From Candidatus Aminicenantota bacterium (GTDB lineage: Bacteria; Acidobacteriota; Aminicenantia; Aminicenantales; Saccharicenantaceae), in assembly GCA_016867635.1 (NCBI GenBank), contig VGJC01000006.1:1-41164 (forward strand): a stretch of DNA of 41,164 bases, in the 5' to 3' direction. Within the stretch, counting starts at the first letter, position 1. Every line of letters begins with the position of its first letter. Shown piece after piece: positions 13,232-20,825 of the stretch. The position numbers and the translations under genes are program-made. Below the pieces are notes generated by a model. That model searched no databases and was not told where the DNA came from. It was given only the letters and a program-made list of their open reading frames with translations.

Positions 13232-14266
13232 ATGAAGATCGGCAAGATAGACGAGGCGGCCTTCCGGGCCCTCATCCTCCGGAAGCTGGGCCGCAAGGAC
13301 CCCACCGTGCTCGTGCCGCCGCGGACGGGGGTCGACGCCGGCGTCGTGGATCTCGGCGGCGGGCGGGTCCTCGTCGTCGCCGAGGACCCCGTCTTCACCA
13401 TGCCTCGCCTGCCGCTCGAGATGTTCGGCTGGTTCACCGTTCACATCGGCGCGAGCGACGTCGCCGTCATGGGCGTCAAGCCCCGCTACATGACCTATAC
13501 GCTCCTCCTGCCGCCGGAGACGGGGAGGAAGGACATCAAGACCCTCGTCGATTCCATCCACCGGGCGGCCCGCGGCCTGGGGATCGCCATCGTGGGCGGC
13601 CACACGGGCTTCTACCCGGGCTTTCAGGCCCCGACCATCGGCGGCATCACGGTCTTCGCCGTGGCCCGCAAGGGGGAGTACGTGACTCCGGCCGGGGCCA
13701 GGCCGGGAGACGACATCCTGCTGACCAAGGGCCCGGCCATCGAAACGGCCGGATTGCTGGCCGTTCTCAGAGAAGAGGAGCTCCTGGAGAGGCACCCGGC
13801 GGCCCTGGTCGGGAAGGCCAAGGCCCTGACCTATCAGGTCAGCGTCGTCAAGGACGCCCTGACGGCCATGGCCGCCGGCGGGGTCACGGCCATGCACGAC
13901 GCCACCGAGGGCGGGGTCATGGGCGGGCTTTTCGAGATCGCTTCGGCCAGCGGGGTCGGGATGGAGGTGGACGAAAGCCTGTTCGTCTATCCCGAGGAGG
14001 TCCGGATGGTCTGCGAGACCTTCGCCATCGATCCGGTCCGGGCCATCGCCGAGGGGAGTCTGCTGATCACGGCCCGGCCGTCGTCGAGCGCCCGCATCAT
14101 CGCCCGGCTGCGGACAAAGAAGATCGAGGGGTCGGTCATCGGCAAGGTGACGGCGAACAGGCGGCGCCGGATCCTGCGCCGGCTCGACGGGAAGATCGAG
14201 CGCCTGGCCGTCCCCGAGCAGGACCCCTTCTGGCCGGCCTTTTTCGAAGGCTTGGAAAGGGTCTGA
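13232..14266 (+). CDS. AIR synthase-related (HypE/ThiL/PurM-like) ATP-binding protein
   Basis: The 344-residue protein has the two-domain PurM fold: an N-terminal half with DAGVVDLGGGRVLVVAEDPVF and HIGASDVAVMGVKPRYM (metal/ATP site) and a C-terminal half with MHDATEGGVMGGLFEIA. These motifs are closest to HypE-type hydrogenase maturation proteins, which dehydrate a thiocarbamate on a C-terminal cysteine. Here the C-terminus is ...FFEGLERV with no PRIC-like cysteine tail, so it is not a standard HypE. No other hyp genes are nearby. The substrate is unknown; pairing with folD is positional only. The start follows GGAGGAAGG. Confidence 0.8.
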   Translation: MKIGKIDEAAFRALILRKLGRKDPTVLVPPRTGVDAGVVDLGGGRVLVVAEDPVFTMPRLPLEMFGWFTVHIGASDVAVMGVKPRYMTYTLLLPPETGRKDIKTLVDSIHRAARGLGIAIVGGHTGFYPGFQAPTIGGITVFAVARKGEYVTPAGARPGDDILLTKGPAIETAGLLAVLREEELLERHPAALVGKAKALTYQVSVVKDALTAMAAGGVTAMHDATEGGVMGGLFEIASASGVGMEVDESLFVYPEEVRMVCETFAIDPVRAIAEGSLLITARPSSSARIIARLRTKKIEGSVIGKVTANRRRRILRRLDGKIERLAVPEQDPFWPAFFEGLERV

Positions 14267-14271
14267 AACCC

Positions 14272-14721
14272 TCAGCGGACCTTGGCCCGGGCCTTTTTCT
14301 TGATCTTCTCGGCCTGGGCGACGATGTCCTTCAGGGTGATCCGGTCAAAATAGGCTTTCAGCATCTCGGTCGCGCCCTTCCAGATCTCGAACGTCGGGCA
14401 GGTGTCGATCTTCTCGCAGTAGTTAGGGTCATCGGCGCATTCGACCAGGAACAAGTTGCCTTCCAGGGCATGGAGGATCTCGCTGAGCTTGATGTCGGAC
14501 GGGTCCCTCCCGAGGATGTAGCCTCCGCCGGCGCCCCGGATGCTCTTGACCAGCCGGTTGATCTTGAGGGGGATGATGATCTGTTCAAGGTAGCGGATCG
14601 AGATCCCTTCCTCATCCGAGATATCCCTGAGGATGATCGCCCGGGCCCCGTTCCCGTGGTGCTGGGCCAAGTTGAGCATGAGGCGCGTCCCGTAGCGCCC
14701 TTTGGTCGAAAGCCTGATCAT
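14272..14721 (-). CDS. Rrf2-family transcriptional regulator with three cysteines
   Basis: The 149-residue protein has the Rrf2 winged helix (MIRLSTKGRYGTRLMLNLA, SIRYLEQIIIPLKINRLVKS, IRGAGGGYILGR). A loop carries three cysteines, ECADDPNYCEKIDTC (Cys95, Cys102, Cys108). IscR-type members bind a [2Fe-2S] cluster with C-x5-C-x5-C; the spacing here is C-x6-C-x5-C, so a cluster sensing iron-sulfur status, redox or NO is plausible but unproven. It could regulate the divergent ior operon, whose enzymes depend on iron-sulfur electron transfer. A GGAGAAGG site precedes the ATG. Its stop is five bases from that of the AIR synthase-like gene. Confidence 0.9.
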   Translation of the reverse strand: MIRLSTKGRYGTRLMLNLAQHHGNGARAIILRDISDEEGISIRYLEQIIIPLKINRLVKSIRGAGGGYILGRDPSDIKLSEILHALEGNLFLVECADDPNYCEKIDTCPTFEIWKGATEMLKAYFDRITLKDIVAQAEKIKKKARAKVR

Positions 14722-14950: not shown

Positions 14951-16543
14951 ATGGGACGTCAGATCCTGCTCGGTGACGAAGCGGTGGCCCTGGGGGCCGT
15001 CCACGCGGGGCTGTCCGCCGGTTATTCCTATCCCGGCACACCGGCCTCCGAGATCATGGAGTTCTTGGTCCGCCTGGCTGCGGAGAGAAAGGACTTCACC
15101 GCGGCCTGGTCGGTCAACGAGAAGGTCGCCTACGAGGAAGCCCTGGGGGCCTCCTTCGCCGGAAAGCGCGCGCTCGTCTCCTTCAAGCATGTCGGGCTCA
15201 ACGTGGCCGCCGACCCGTTCATGAACTCCGCCCTGACCGGGGCCAACGGCGGCCTGGTCGTCGTGAGCGCCGACGACCCGGGCATGCACAGCTCGCAGAA
15301 CGAGCAGGACAGCCGCTACTTCGCCCAGTTCGCCCAGGTCTTCTGCTACGAGCCCGCGGACCACCAGGAGGCCTATGACATGACCCGGGAGGCCTACGAC
15401 GTCTCCGAGCGTTTCGGCCTGCCCGTCCTCATGCGCCTGGTGACGCGGCTGTCCCACAGCCGGTCCTCGGTCGAGACCAAGGAGCCGAGGGGCCAGAACG
15501 AGCTCCACCCGGGGGCCCCCCGGGACTGGACCCTTCTTCCGGTCAACGCCCGGCGGCGTTTCGGGCTGCTCCTCGACCGGCAGGCGGAGATGGCCCGTTT
15601 CTCGGACGGGTCCGCCTTCAACGTCCTCCGCCTCAACGACAAGGACCGGTCCCTCGGGGTCATCGCCGCGGGCGTCGGCTACAACTATTTCCGCGAGGCC
15701 TGCGGCCCGGACGGGGACCTGCCGTCATTCCTCAAGGTCTCGACCTATCCGCTGCCCGAGGGCCTCGTCCGCAAGCTCGTCGAGCACGTCGGGTCCGTAC
15801 TGGTCGTCGAGGACGGATATCCCTTCATCGAAAAGCAGCTGAAAGGCCTGTTCGGGATCGCCGGCAAGACCGTCCTCGGCCGTCTCAGCGGCGCGCTGCC
15901 CCGCTCCGGCGAGCTGTCGCCCGACAGTGTCCGCGCGGCCCTCGGCCTCGAGCCGCTGCCGGCCCTCGCCAAGAGCGGCCTGCCGCTCGCCGGGCGCCCG
16001 CCCCAGCTCTGCCTCGGGTGCCCGCACGCCGACACCTTCAAGGCCCTCAACAAGGCCCTCGAGTCCTACCCCGGCTCCGGCGTCTTCAGCGACATCGGGT
16101 GCTACACGCTGGGCGCGCTGCCTCCCTACAACGCCATCGAGACGTGCGTCTGCATGGGGGCCAGCATCAGCATGGCCCGCGGGGCCTCGGATGCCGGGCT
16201 CCGTCCGGCCGTATCCGTCATCGGCGATTCGACCTTCGCCCATTCCGGGATCACCCCGCTCCTCGGCGCGGCCGCGTCCGACGTCGATATGACCGTCTTC
16301 ATCCTCGACAACTCGACGACGGCCATGACCGGCGGCCAGCCGAGCTTCGGGACCGGCGAGCGCCTGCTGCGCATCATCGAGGGCCTCGGCGTCCCCCGGG
16401 AGCGCGTCCGGACGATCGACCCCCTGCCGAAGAACCACGAGAAGAACGTCGGCATCATCCGCGAGGAGCTGGACCATCGCGGGCTGTCCGTCGTCGTCGC
16501 CGTCCGGGAGTGCGTCCAGGAGACTAGGAAGAAAAGGAGCTAG
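14951..16543 (+). CDS. iorA: Indolepyruvate:ferredoxin oxidoreductase alpha subunit, lacking the ferredoxin domain
   Basis: IorA carries the thiamine diphosphate site that decarboxylates arylpyruvates (indolepyruvate, phenylpyruvate) to aryl-acetyl-CoA. The N-terminal half binds the 2-oxoacid (MGRQILLGDEAVALGAVHAG, GYSYPGTPASEIMEF). The core has QLCLGCPHADTFKAL, the first thiamine segment IGDSTFAHSGITPLLGAA and the Asn-containing FILDNSTTAMTGGQ. The protein stops at 530 residues, with VVVAVRECVQETRKKRS. Typical IorA proteins run to about 600-650 residues with two CxxCxxCxxxCP clusters after this point, and these are absent. The start follows GGAGGAAAGG. iorB follows after three bases. Confidence 0.9.
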   Translation: MGRQILLGDEAVALGAVHAGLSAGYSYPGTPASEIMEFLVRLAAERKDFTAAWSVNEKVAYEEALGASFAGKRALVSFKHVGLNVAADPFMNSALTGANGGLVVVSADDPGMHSSQNEQDSRYFAQFAQVFCYEPADHQEAYDMTREAYDVSERFGLPVLMRLVTRLSHSRSSVETKEPRGQNELHPGAPRDWTLLPVNARRRFGLLLDRQAEMARFSDGSAFNVLRLNDKDRSLGVIAAGVGYNYFREACGPDGDLPSFLKVSTYPLPEGLVRKLVEHVGSVLVVEDGYPFIEKQLKGLFGIAGKTVLGRLSGALPRSGELSPDSVRAALGLEPLPALAKSGLPLAGRPPQLCLGCPHADTFKALNKALESYPGSGVFSDIGCYTLGALPPYNAIETCVCMGASISMARGASDAGLRPAVSVIGDSTFAHSGITPLLGAAASDVDMTVFILDNSTTAMTGGQPSFGTGERLLRIIEGLGVPRERVRTIDPLPKNHEKNVGIIREELDHRGLSVVVAVRECVQETRKKRS

Positions 16544-16546
16544 GCC

Positions 16547-17125
16547 ATGAAGCAGGACATCATTCTGGCGGGCGTCGGCGGTCAGGGCATCCTGTCCATC
16601 GCCTACGTCATCGACAACGCCGCCCTGGCCGAAGGGCTCTTCTTCAAGCAGGCCGAGGTCCACGGCATGGCCCAGCGGGGCGGGGCCGTCCAGTCCCACA
16701 TGAGGCTTTCGAGCCGGCCCGTCTGGAGCGACCTCATCCCCAGGGGAGAGGCCGACATGATCCTCAGCGTCGAACCTCTGGAGGCCCTCCGCTACCTGGA
16801 CTACCTGCGTCCCGACGGGATCGTCGTGACCAGTTCGACCCCGTACAAGAACATCCCCGACTACCCCGACCTCGACAACATCCTCGACGCCGTCCGGAAG
16901 GCCCCGAAGGCGGTCATCGTCGACTCGGAAAAGCTGGCCAAGGAAGCCGGCACGGTCAAGGCCCAGAACATCGTCCTCCTGGGGGCGGCCTCGGGTTTTC
17001 TGATGCTCAAGGAGGCCGGGCTGAAGACCGTGATCGAAGCCCTGTTCAAAGGGCGCGGGGGGCCGGTCCTCGAGGCCAACCTGAAAGCCTTCGACCTCGG
17101 CCGGAAGGCGGCCTCAGGGTCATGA
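16547..17125 (+). CDS. iorB: Indolepyruvate oxidoreductase beta subunit
   Basis: This 192-residue protein is the gamma-type (POR_G) subunit that pairs with IorA and helps bind CoA. The N-terminus MKQDIILAGVGGQGILSIAY has the family GxGGQG loop; AEVHGMAQRGGAVQSHMRL is the second hallmark. It starts three bases after iorA and its stop overlaps the start of the acyl-CoA synthetase (ATGA), so all three are translationally coupled. It has no cysteine cluster, so the complex as encoded has no visible iron-sulfur site. Confidence 0.94.
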   Translation: MKQDIILAGVGGQGILSIAYVIDNAALAEGLFFKQAEVHGMAQRGGAVQSHMRLSSRPVWSDLIPRGEADMILSVEPLEALRYLDYLRPDGIVVTSSTPYKNIPDYPDLDNILDAVRKAPKAVIVDSEKLAKEAGTVKAQNIVLLGAASGFLMLKEAGLKTVIEALFKGRGGPVLEANLKAFDLGRKAASGS

Positions 17126-19461
17126 AGAAGACCGGCCTCGGCAAGATCGACCGGATCTTCGCCTTGGCGGAGAAGGACGGGCGCGATTCCCTGCTCGAGC
17201 CGGAGGTCTACCGGGTCCTGGCGGCGGCCGGGATCCGGACGCCGCGCCACGTCTTCCTTCCGACCGGGAAGCGGGCGACGCGCAAGGACCTGCCTTCCCA
17301 AGGCGCCGGCAAGGTCGTCATCAAGGTCGTCTCGCCGCTCATCGTCCACAAGTCCGACGCCGGAGGCGTGGAGTTCGTCGCGGCCGACGCCGCGTCCGTG
17401 AACAAAGCCTGCGGCCGCATGCTCCGGACCGTTCCCCTCCGCTATATCGAATGGCTGAAAAGGTCCTCCGGGGCGACGGCCGGGAAGGCGGTCACGCCGG
17501 GCGCCGTCCGGGAGTCCATCCGCGGCTTCCTGATCGCGGAGAAGGTCGATTTCGAGAACGTCGGCTTCGGCTCCGAGATCCTGATCGGGACCCGCAACAC
17601 CCGCGAGTTCGGCCCCGTCCTGACGGTCGGCAGCGGAGGCCTCGAGGTCGAATACATGAACGAGCGGCTCCGGGAAGGCCGGGCGGCGGCCATCGCCTCG
17701 GCCCACCTGCTCGATGACGGGCAGGTCGAGGGCCTCATCGGGCCGCTGTCGTTCTTCGGCAAAGTGGCGGCCGAGTTCCGGGGCCGGAAACCTCTGGTCA
17801 CGCCGAAAGCCCTGGCCGGGACCGTCCTGCTGTTCCGCGACCTGGCGGCCGCCTTTTCCCCGTTCTCCGAGCGCTCGCCGTTCGTCATCGAAGAGGCCGA
17901 GGTCAACCCGTTCGTCATCCGCGGCGGCCGGCTGCTGGCCCTGGACGGCGTCTGCCGGTTCTCCCGGGCCAAGGCCCCGGAAGGCGCCCGCCCCGTGGAA
18001 GCCATCCGGCACCTGCTCCGGCCCGGCTCCATCGGCATCGTCGGCGTTTCGGAGAAAATGAACATCGGCCGCATCATCCTGCGGAACATCCTCAAGAGCG
18101 GGTTCCCGTCCGCGGACGTGTTCGTCGTCAAGCCGGGGGTCGACCGCATCGACGACTGCCTGTGCGTCCCGTCCATCAAGGACCTGCCCCGGCCCGTTGA
18201 CCTGTTCGTTCTGACCCTTGGCGCCGAGCTGTGCGCTCCGGCCATGGAAGAGCTCGTCGAACACGGCAAGGCCCGGTCGGTCATCGTTATCGCCGGCGGC
18301 ATGGGGGAGAAGGAGGGCGGCGCCTCTATCGAGGACCGCATCCGTGAAGTCCTGGCCGGAGGACGGCGGGAAGGGAAGCTGACCCCGGTCGTCAACGGAG
18401 GCAACTGTCTGGGCATCGCCTCGAAGCCCGGCCGCTACGACACGACGTTCATCCCCGCGAGCAAGCTGCCCCGGCCGAAGAGCCCGCGCTCGGGCCTGGC
18501 CCTCATCAGCCAGAGCGGGGCCTTCATGATCTGCCGGATGAGCAAGCTGCCGATGATCGAGCCCCTCTACGCGGTCTCGCTGGGTAACCAGATCGACCTC
18601 ACGGCGTCGGACTACATGAAGTATCTCGCCGAAGACGGGGAGGCCCGGCTCTTCGCCGTCTACATGGAGGGATTCCGGCCCGGCGACGGGCTGGCCTTCG
18701 CCCGGGCCGTCAAGGACATCACGGCCGGGGAGGGACGGGGCGTCGTCGTCTATAAAGCGGGCCGGAGCCCCGAAGGCCGGGCGGCGACCTCGAGCCACAC
18801 GGCTTCGGTGGCCGGCGAATACGCCGTATTCCGCTCCGTCCTCGAGCAAGCCGGGGCGGTCGTCGCCGGGGACCTCTTCGAGTTCGAGAGCTTCATGAAA
18901 GGGATGGTCTTCCTCGAGGAGAAAAAGGTCCACGGCCGGCGCGTGGGGCTCATCAGCAACGCCGGCTTCGAATGCGTGGTGCTGGCCGACAATCTGAAGA
19001 ACGGCGGCGGGCTGGAGCTGGCCGCGTTCGCGCCGGGGACCCGGGCCCGGATCCTCGACGCCCTTCGGCCGCTCGGGATCGACCGCCTCCAGGACGTCCG
19101 CAACCCTCTCGACGTGACGCCGGTCGCCGACGACGCGGCCTTCTGCGAGTGCGCCCGGGCCATCCTCGAAGACCCGGGAGTCGACTGCGCGGTCGTCTCC
19201 AACGTCCCCATGACCCCGGCCCAGCAGACGTTGAAGGCGGGAGAGGCCCACGGCGAGGACCTCACGCGGCCGGGCGCTTTCGCCTCACGGATGATCGAGA
19301 TCTTCCGGGCCGTGGACAAGCCGGTGGTCGTCAACCTCGACGCGGGGGAGCTTTACGCGCCGCTGGCCGAGTTCCTGGAGCGGGCGGGATTGCCCGTCTT
19401 CCGCCGGGCCGACGAAGCGGTCCGCTTTCTCCGGGCTTACGTGGAACACGCGCTGCGATAA
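17122..19461 (+). CDS. ADP-forming acyl-CoA synthetase, ATP-grasp domain first
   Basis: This enzyme would convert acyl- or aryl-acetyl-CoA plus ADP and phosphate to free acid, CoA and ATP, the energy-yielding last step after IorAB. The 779-residue chain begins with an ATP-grasp domain (about 1-290: GKVVIKVVSPLIVHKSDAGGV, EEAEVNPFVIRGG). The CoA-binding Rossmann domain follows (about 295-430, SIGIVGVSEKMNIGR), then two succinyl-CoA-ligase-like domains (LALISQSGAFM; SSHTASVAGEYAVF with the phosphorylated His at residue 559). Most fused family members have the CoA-binding half first, so the order is reversed here. Substrate choice is inferred from linkage to iorAB. Confidence 0.88.
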   Translation: MKKTGLGKIDRIFALAEKDGRDSLLEPEVYRVLAAAGIRTPRHVFLPTGKRATRKDLPSQGAGKVVIKVVSPLIVHKSDAGGVEFVAADAASVNKACGRMLRTVPLRYIEWLKRSSGATAGKAVTPGAVRESIRGFLIAEKVDFENVGFGSEILIGTRNTREFGPVLTVGSGGLEVEYMNERLREGRAAAIASAHLLDDGQVEGLIGPLSFFGKVAAEFRGRKPLVTPKALAGTVLLFRDLAAAFSPFSERSPFVIEEAEVNPFVIRGGRLLALDGVCRFSRAKAPEGARPVEAIRHLLRPGSIGIVGVSEKMNIGRIILRNILKSGFPSADVFVVKPGVDRIDDCLCVPSIKDLPRPVDLFVLTLGAELCAPAMEELVEHGKARSVIVIAGGMGEKEGGASIEDRIREVLAGGRREGKLTPVVNGGNCLGIASKPGRYDTTFIPASKLPRPKSPRSGLALISQSGAFMICRMSKLPMIEPLYAVSLGNQIDLTASDYMKYLAEDGEARLFAVYMEGFRPGDGLAFARAVKDITAGEGRGVVVYKAGRSPEGRAATSSHTASVAGEYAVFRSVLEQAGAVVAGDLFEFESFMKGMVFLEEKKVHGRRVGLISNAGFECVVLADNLKNGGGLELAAFAPGTRARILDALRPLGIDRLQDVRNPLDVTPVADDAAFCECARAILEDPGVDCAVVSNVPMTPAQQTLKAGEAHGEDLTRPGAFASRMIEIFRAVDKPVVVNLDAGELYAPLAEFLERAGLPVFRRADEAVRFLRAYVEHALR

Positions 19462-19505: not shown

Positions 19506-20825
19506 TCAGCGCCTGCGCCACTGGAACCGGTGGGGGAAAGACTCGGGGTTGTTCGTCGCGATGGGCGCCGTGTGACAGACGGCGCAGGAGGTCGGCCGGT
19601 CGCCGCCATGGGCGGTCACGATGTTCACCAACCCGCCGCCCTTCGAGCTCGAGTGGCAGACCCGGCAGCTGCCGATCGTCAAGGCCTTGTTCTGGTATTG
19701 GAGCGCTTGGTAGTGGTCCGAATCCTCGTTCGAAGGGACCGTGGCGTGGGCCGGGCCGTGGCAGGCGGAACAGGAGAGCTCTCCGTGGCCGGCGGAGTCC
19801 TTGTACAGGGCCGCTCCCGTCTCGACTTCATGGACGAACGTGTGGCAGCTCGCGCATTTCGGCTGTCCTGACCACGGGACGCGGCCGGAGGTGATCGTGT
19901 TGGCCAGGTTGGCCATGGTGCCGTGGCAGGTCGCGCAGTTCCCGCTCGCGTTCGTATGGTCCGTGCTCCGGTTGCCTTTGGTCTCTTGACCGGGGTGGCA
20001 ATCATAGCAGTTGACGGTTTTCAGGCTGTGGGTCAAGTGGACGGCTTGGGAGAGGTACTTGCCCGACGATCCCGGCCCGGTCTGGCCCAGGAAGGGGCTT
20101 CCGTGACAGGCGGCGCAAAGAACAGGCTTGCTGTCGACGAGCGTCGTTTCCTCCGATTCGTCGTGGGCTTCCAGGATGGACTTGACATCCCCCACGCCGT
20201 GGCACTTGGCGCAGCTGATCTCGTCGGAGGTCGGGACGGTCGTCCGGGTCACGGCCAGCTCGAGGCCGGTCGCGGCGTCGAGGACCTTGATCTCGGCGAC
20301 CTGGTAGGGGTCCCAGACGTCGGCGTCGTTGACCGGGACGACGGGGATGCCGTCGGCCTGGAAGTGGTTGCCCTTGAGGACCATCTCGCCGGTGAGGCCG
20401 TTGTGGACGCCGGGATCGACGAAGTTCAGGCCGGTGTCCGGAGCCAGGGCGGTCCCGAAGAGAAGGAGGGAGTTGTCCCAGAATTGGGCGTAGCTCCGCT
20501 TGCCGTAGGAAAAGGTGTTGTCGACGATCCGGTACTCGAGCCGGACGCCGGCGGTGACGATCTCGGGGGGGGCGCCGCGCCTGACGACCTGGGCCCAGAG
20601 CGTGTTGTACGGCGGCAGGAGGACCTCGCTGTCGTAGGTCGCGCTGAAGCCGTGCATGCCGATGTCGTTCCAGGCCAGAACGACGTATTCGAGGGATTCG
20701 GCGGGGATGTCGACGGGAACAACGGTCTCGGCGGGCGTCACCGAGCACGTGCCGACGAGGCCGGCCAAGCCGACAAGGAGGAGAACGAGGACAGGCGCGG
20801 GAACTCTCGGGCGACGCTCGGTCAT
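19506..20825 (-). CDS. Octaheme c-type cytochrome with N-terminal signal
   Basis: The 439-residue exported protein carries eight CxxCH heme-attachment motifs, all in the C-terminal half: CAKCH, CAACH, CYDCH, CATCH, CASCH, CSACH, CRVCH and CAVCH. The first 30 residues (VLVLLLVGLAGLVGTCS) form a signal sequence; the Cys could be lipidated, though the VGTC context is not a standard lipobox. The region of about 40-200 (VVLAWNDIGMHGFSATYDSEV, FSYGKRSYAQFWDN) is heme-free and beta-rich, without an assigned function. Such proteins carry electrons in the periplasm or at the outer membrane. An AAGGAG site precedes the ATG. It converges on the ior operon and diverges from the DUF6599 gene. Confidence 0.9.
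   Translation of the reverse strand: MTERRPRVPAPVLVLLLVGLAGLVGTCSVTPAETVVPVDIPAESLEYVVLAWNDIGMHGFSATYDSEVLLPPYNTLWAQVVRRGAPPEIVTAGVRLEYRIVDNTFSYGKRSYAQFWDNSLLLFGTALAPDTGLNFVDPGVHNGLTGEMVLKGNHFQADGIPVVPVNDADVWDPYQVAEIKVLDAATGLELAVTRTTVPTSDEISCAKCHGVGDVKSILEAHDESEETTLVDSKPVLCAACHGSPFLGQTGPGSSGKYLSQAVHLTHSLKTVNCYDCHPGQETKGNRSTDHTNASGNCATCHGTMANLANTITSGRVPWSGQPKCASCHTFVHEVETGAALYKDSAGHGELSCSACHGPAHATVPSNEDSDHYQALQYQNKALTIGSCRVCHSSSKGGGLVNIVTAHGGDRPTSCAVCHTAPIATNNPESFPHRFQWRRR

Follow-up and report, generated by a model that had tools for sequence, protein, structure and literature searches.

A ferredoxin-domain-less IorA with retained proximal cluster cysteines, encoded with IorB and an ADP-forming acyl-CoA synthetase in a Candidatus Aminicenantota genome

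The iorA and iorB genes of a Candidatus Aminicenantota bacterium, together with the synthetase gene (acd) that follows them, probably encode a minimal, single-cluster, two-subunit arylpyruvate:ferredoxin oxidoreductase coupled to ATP formation, a reading to which we assign a probability of about 0.8. The genes lie in a stretch of 41,164 nucleotides (contig VGJC01000006.1), called the window here. Its IorA lacks the C-terminal 2x[4Fe-4S] ferredoxin (Fd) domain and represents a separate, old branch of IorA proteins, not a broken or isolated case. The features concerned are:

14951 to 16543, plus strand: iorA-like alpha subunit, 530 aa, with OFOR domains I/II (POR_N) and TPP domain VI, lacking the C-terminal Fd domain V
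16010 to 16021 (codons), plus strand: CLGC, C354-x-G-C357, predicted first two ligands of the proximal [4Fe-4S] cluster, aligned with StOFOR C12/C15
16100 to 16102 (codon), plus strand: C384 (DIGC), predicted third proximal-cluster ligand, invariant, aligned with StOFOR C46
16511 to 16540 (codons), plus strand: C521, predicted to be ligand four of the proximal cluster, followed by VQETRKKRS, a basic C-terminal helix at the place where an Fd domain would be expected to start
16547 to 17125, plus strand: iorB, 192 aa, gamma-type subunit with POR domain III and without cysteine, NF005324 at 268.9 bits against a cut-off of 222
17122 to 19461, plus strand: ADP(NDP)-forming acyl-CoA synthetase, ATP-grasp first, with an ATGA overlap with the iorB stop
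14272 to 14721, minus strand: Rrf2/IscR-like regulator with three cysteines (95, 102, 108), divergent from iorA
G000:C11:26936-27172, elsewhere in the genome: free YfhL-type 2[4Fe-4S] ferredoxin, over its cut-off

A first-pass annotation had described an IorA that keeps its thiamine and oxoacid domains and ends at residue 530, and the ORF, Pfam and TIGR03336 all agreed with this description. The ORF translation terminates in VRECVQETRKKRS, and a Pfam scan of IorA identified POR_N and TPP_enzyme_C and no other domain. With the POR domain of IorB, the OFOR superfamily domains I/II, III and VI were thus all present over the Pfam cut-offs, and the residues of the thiamine-diphosphate site (G425-D426 and N454) were invariant or nearly so. 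The TIGR03336 match spanned model positions 2-538 of 595, leaving the final 57 (539-595) unmatched, and scored 502.2 bits, below the curated cut-off of 650.9. The protein is therefore an OFOR but not an IorA in the sense of TIGR03336, as it falls short of that cut-off and lacks the C-terminal 2x[4Fe-4S] domain. An AlphaFold2 model, in which C521 immediately precedes the final helix, was confident up to the C-terminus (mean pLDDT 89.9, pTM 0.88), suggesting that the 530 residues form a complete fold; its first PDB match was OorA, the OFOR alpha subunit of H. pylori OorDABC. We consider it very probable that the Fd-less IorA works like an IOR.

The claim that this IorA is missing its cluster motifs was correct for the C-terminal 2x[4Fe-4S] pair, but overlooked the proximal ligands C354, C357, C384 and C521, which were invariant in an alignment of 118 Fd-less and 6 Fd-bearing IorA proteins. 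When a profile of this cysteine region was compared with PDB chains, the beta subunits of StOFOR2 and StOFOR1 ranked first (5b48_B) and fourth (5b46_B), and the printed PDB-chain alignments paired the four cysteines with StOFOR C12, C15, C46 and C197. The StOFORs have no domain V, and their sole [4Fe-4S] cluster, bound through the CxGC motif, is needed for the oxidative reaction and dispensable for the non-oxidative one (PMC5020499). They have a large pocket into which a free dicluster ferredoxin was modelled, and such a ferredoxin is their acceptor, with a Km of 2-3 uM (PMC5020499). Because the proximal-cluster cysteines of the window IorA are retained and match the StOFOR ligands, its electron path appears to be two clusters shorter, and not severed.

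Where no contig end cuts the copy, Fd-less IorA proteins stop around residue 530 in a short, mostly basic tail: 92% of these tails carried a charge of +2 or more, versus 14% of other 12-residue stretches. Basic tails are common, and this one may perhaps serve as a docking site. Among the Fd-less IorA of Phycisphaerae, four (L092, L094, L102 and L111) have longer, low-complexity tails with scattered CxxC-like cysteines, which may be either a remnant or a new metal site. The members from one Acidobacteriota genus (L175-L183, g46) form a very long branch and have short tails with two or three cysteines, such as CTTEACS.

The short form proved to be clade-wide, as the first-pass annotation had proposed to check: a full-length Fd-less orthologue with the same end point was present in 35 of 39 relatives, and one further copy was truncated by a contig edge. 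A scan of GTDB contigs returned 230 encoding loci, the best 80 of which came from Aminicenantes, other Acidobacteriota, Planctomycetota (chiefly Phycisphaerae), Myxococcota/Deltaproteobacteria, Pseudomonadota and one Woesearchaeote. The same short IorA also appeared in three Bacteroidales records (filed as plasmids), two of which annotate it as a 'thiamine pyrophosphate-dependent enzyme'. In a maximum-likelihood tree of the shared IorA core, from which Fd parts had been trimmed, one branch (SH-aLRT 100) split 87 Fd-less sequences from seven phyla from 24 Fd-bearing ones, an order that no label shuffle out of 500 equalled. Homologs with a complete C-terminal 2x[4Fe-4S] domain do occur elsewhere in the phylum, including other families of the window organism's own class, and such families are among the 24; none, however, fell within the subfamily, and all stood on the opposite side of the tree. 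With an unrooted tree and few Fd-bearing sequences in the sample, we describe the branch as lacking the domain, and not as having lost it (as opposed to a gain elsewhere). Both IorA types appear to coexist in some genomes. A different form was seen in the same phylum (L201:1064-4444, genome G080), where an ORF of 1127 codons joins IorA, Fer4_20, Pyr_redox_2 (GltD-like) and a C-terminal Fer4; this IorA is apparently wired to NAD(P)H.

The synthetase gene was found to be a regular companion of the Fd-less pair. An ADP-forming synthetase lay within 1.3 kb after iorB at 59 of 69 Fd-less loci, but at none of the 19 Fd-bearing ones (Fisher p 2e-12, indicative only, as the rows are related and not independent). 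The window synthetase keeps both VHKSDAGG (H76) and SHTAS (H559), which we take to be the catalytic histidine motifs of ADP-forming acetyl-CoA synthetases. The two genes formed a single ORF in 17 cases, all from the Planctomycetota part of the sample and mostly from Phycisphaerae, where the synthetase was fused to iorB in most members sampled:

L102:6636-9779: fused iorB-synthetase ORF
L083:6877-9981: fused iorB-synthetase ORF
15 further ORFs of the same kind

Where complete, the fused ORFs comprise about 1000-1200 codons with POR, ATP-grasp, CoA-binding and ligase domains, and largely retain the presumed catalytic histidine motifs. Directly downstream of iorAB, the Bacteroidales members had a phenylacetate-CoA ligase or neither ligase, not an ADP-forming synthetase. 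As the partner linked or fused to iorB uses acyl-CoA, the product of IorAB is implied to be an acyl-CoA; the fusion indicates the fate of that product, which would yield ATP by substrate-level phosphorylation. A route from IorAB through aryl-CoA to an ADP-forming synthetase has been proposed as the way in which archaea and Nitrosocaldus ferment aromatic amino acids (PMC5817080). With the family name as the sole basis, the substrate would be an arylpyruvate; no sequence motif predicting indolepyruvate oxidation was found in another study (PMC13290082).

As the first-pass annotation had stated, iorB carries no cluster motif (it has zero cysteines) and the window holds no ferredoxin gene: a search for CxxCxxCx3-6C gave zero matches in all six frames of the whole window. 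The genome search that it had suggested for a detached 2x[4Fe-4S] ferredoxin was successful, yielding the YfhL-type protein listed above, whose gene is unlinked to iorAB. Of the 40 genomes in the set, 38 had a ferredoxin of this type, versus 1 of 14 control genomes. YfhL-type ferredoxins have other roles too. We infer that the electrons of IorAB go to this ferredoxin, or to any ferredoxin, as acceptor; the literature that we found names no acceptor for the Fd-less clade from biochemical data.

In the mechanism that we propose, thiamine diphosphate would support decarboxylation of the 2-oxoacid (phenylpyruvate, hydroxyphenylpyruvate or indolepyruvate), and a single proximal [4Fe-4S] cluster, presumably held by the four cysteines, would receive the electrons one at a time. 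The cluster would pass them directly to a free ferredoxin, docked at the site of the missing Fd domain, perhaps with the aid of the basic C-terminal helix. The acyl group would be transferred to CoA, and the ADP-forming synthetase would then convert the aryl-acyl-CoA to the free acid and ATP.

Two possibilities had been raised at the outset, namely transfer of electrons to a separate carrier and an altered reaction such as non-oxidative decarboxylation. The former is now the best-supported reading, given the retained proximal ligands, the solved OFORs that lack domain V and the detached ferredoxin in the genome. The latter, in which the electron exit has been lost and an arylacetaldehyde is made, is very improbable. 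Non-oxidative decarboxylation is a known side reaction of OFORs, for which StOFOR1 needs neither cluster nor CoA (PMC5020499), but all four proximal-cluster cysteines are invariant although the cluster is dispensable there, the tightly linked or fused synthetase needs acyl-CoA, and the Pfam scan of IorA found neither TPP_enzyme_N nor TPP_enzyme_M, the domains of dedicated thiamine-dependent arylpyruvate decarboxylases (IPDC/PPDC). Even more remote is an artefact, in which a frameshift, an assembly break or a mis-called stop conceals an Fd domain. Although the genome is a draft of 298 contigs, the identical end point recurs in about 118 distinct sequences, no Fd-like sequence was found downstream or at the iorA/iorB junction in any reading frame, and iorB starts just four bases past the iorA stop codon; we accordingly rejected it.

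The carrier itself could be of another kind. A flavodoxin, an NAD(P)H-linked flavoprotein or an electron-transfer flavoprotein encoded elsewhere would agree with the IorA of L201, whose fusion to Fer4_20/Pyr_redox_2 indicates that IorA can couple to pyridine nucleotides, and with the inclusion of NADH-dependent OFORs in NCBIfam (the phenylglyoxylate dehydrogenase models). The operon in the window, however, has no Fer4_20/Pyr_redox_2-like or other such module, and the genome encodes many ferredoxin-type proteins and enzymes that depend on ferredoxin, including OFORs with delta subunits and a homodimeric PFOR that scored over its cut-off; we therefore regard a non-ferredoxin carrier as unlikely, while giving it some weight. 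Nor do we favor a dedicated, delta-like ferredoxin subunit stably bound to IorAB, which seems decidedly unlikely. Other OFORs of this genome (on C1 and C16) are adjoined by their own separate delta-type ferredoxins, but among the loci scanned a two-motif ferredoxin ORF in the vicinity of the Fd-less operon occurred just once, in L087, 6 kb off on the other strand; a dedicated partner encoded away from the operon is conceivable. We also entertain, as a tentative idea that we doubt more than we believe, that the Fd-less branch is a distinct enzyme class, without a name so far, whose IorAB and ADP-forming synthetase act as one machine, with the aryl-acyl-CoA handed on inside the complex (or, in Phycisphaerae, inside the single IorB-synthetase polypeptide) and a specific YfhL-type ferredoxin receiving the electrons that leave by the one cluster.

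Several neighboring genes were considered alongside the operon. The Rrf2/IscR-like regulator gene is conserved beside it in many Aminicenantes, and may couple the operon to the Fe-S or redox state. The window also encodes an AIR-synthase-like protein (13232-14266, plus strand; a relative of ThiL/HypE/SelD) that scored under every curated cut-off, and an eight-heme c-type cytochrome (19506-20825, minus strand), convergent with the synthetase gene and in the same place in the closest relatives. We rejected a link between this cytochrome and the operon, since it is encoded on the other strand, has an N-terminal export-like segment and was found next to the operon in none but the closest relatives.

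The curated IorA model excludes the window IorA, and RefSeq names the Bacteroides relatives merely 'thiamine pyrophosphate-dependent enzyme'; current annotation therefore probably understates the oxidation of aromatic amino acids in Aminicenantes, Acidobacteriota, Planctomycetota and Myxococcota, and in gut Bacteroidales. The Fd-less branch also offers a natural experiment on whether OFORs require a built-in ferredoxin domain. Our literature search returned no prior account of an Fd-less IorA or of a fusion between IorB and an acyl-CoA synthetase (PMC9007349 holds nothing on iorA), which is weak evidence of absence, as most subscription journals lay beyond its reach.

Compared with known systems, the window pair resembles canonical IorAB (TIGR03336/TIGR03334) in the POR_N-then-TPP order, the IorB partner and the gene order, and shares with it the proximal-cluster cysteines and about 40-50% identity across the common core. 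Canonical IorAB differ in having the C-terminal 2x[4Fe-4S] domain, whereas the window IorA has none, scores below the TIGR03336 cut-off and sits on a separate branch; the window-type operon differs further in its linkage to an ADP-forming acyl-CoA synthetase. StOFOR1 and StOFOR2 (PDB 5b46-5b48) are alike in the absence of domain V, the single proximal [4Fe-4S] site and the same four-cysteine pattern, and also, if the proposed acceptor is correct, in their use of a free ferredoxin. Their layout is nevertheless different (alpha III-I-II and beta VI, versus alpha I-II-VI and beta III in the window enzyme), as is their substrate family.

The Bacteroides pair annotated as a 'thiamine pyrophosphate-dependent enzyme' and an indolepyruvate oxidoreductase beta subunit (for example WP_022276040.1) is also Fd-less, at 530 aa, and falls on the same side of the tree; in B. 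finegoldii, the Fd-less iorA-iorB pair has a phenylacetate-CoA ligase in place of the ADP-forming synthetase. In B. thetaiotaomicron, the formation of 4-hydroxyphenylacetate from tyrosine dropped when BT0430, which opens the two-gene OFOR cluster BT0430-0429, was deleted, and it recovered on complementation (PMC10746243). The Bacteroides pair is probably orthologous to BT0430-BT0429, and the presence of an Fd-less iorA-iorB pair in B. finegoldii suggests that BT0430 probably belongs to the Fd-less branch as well.
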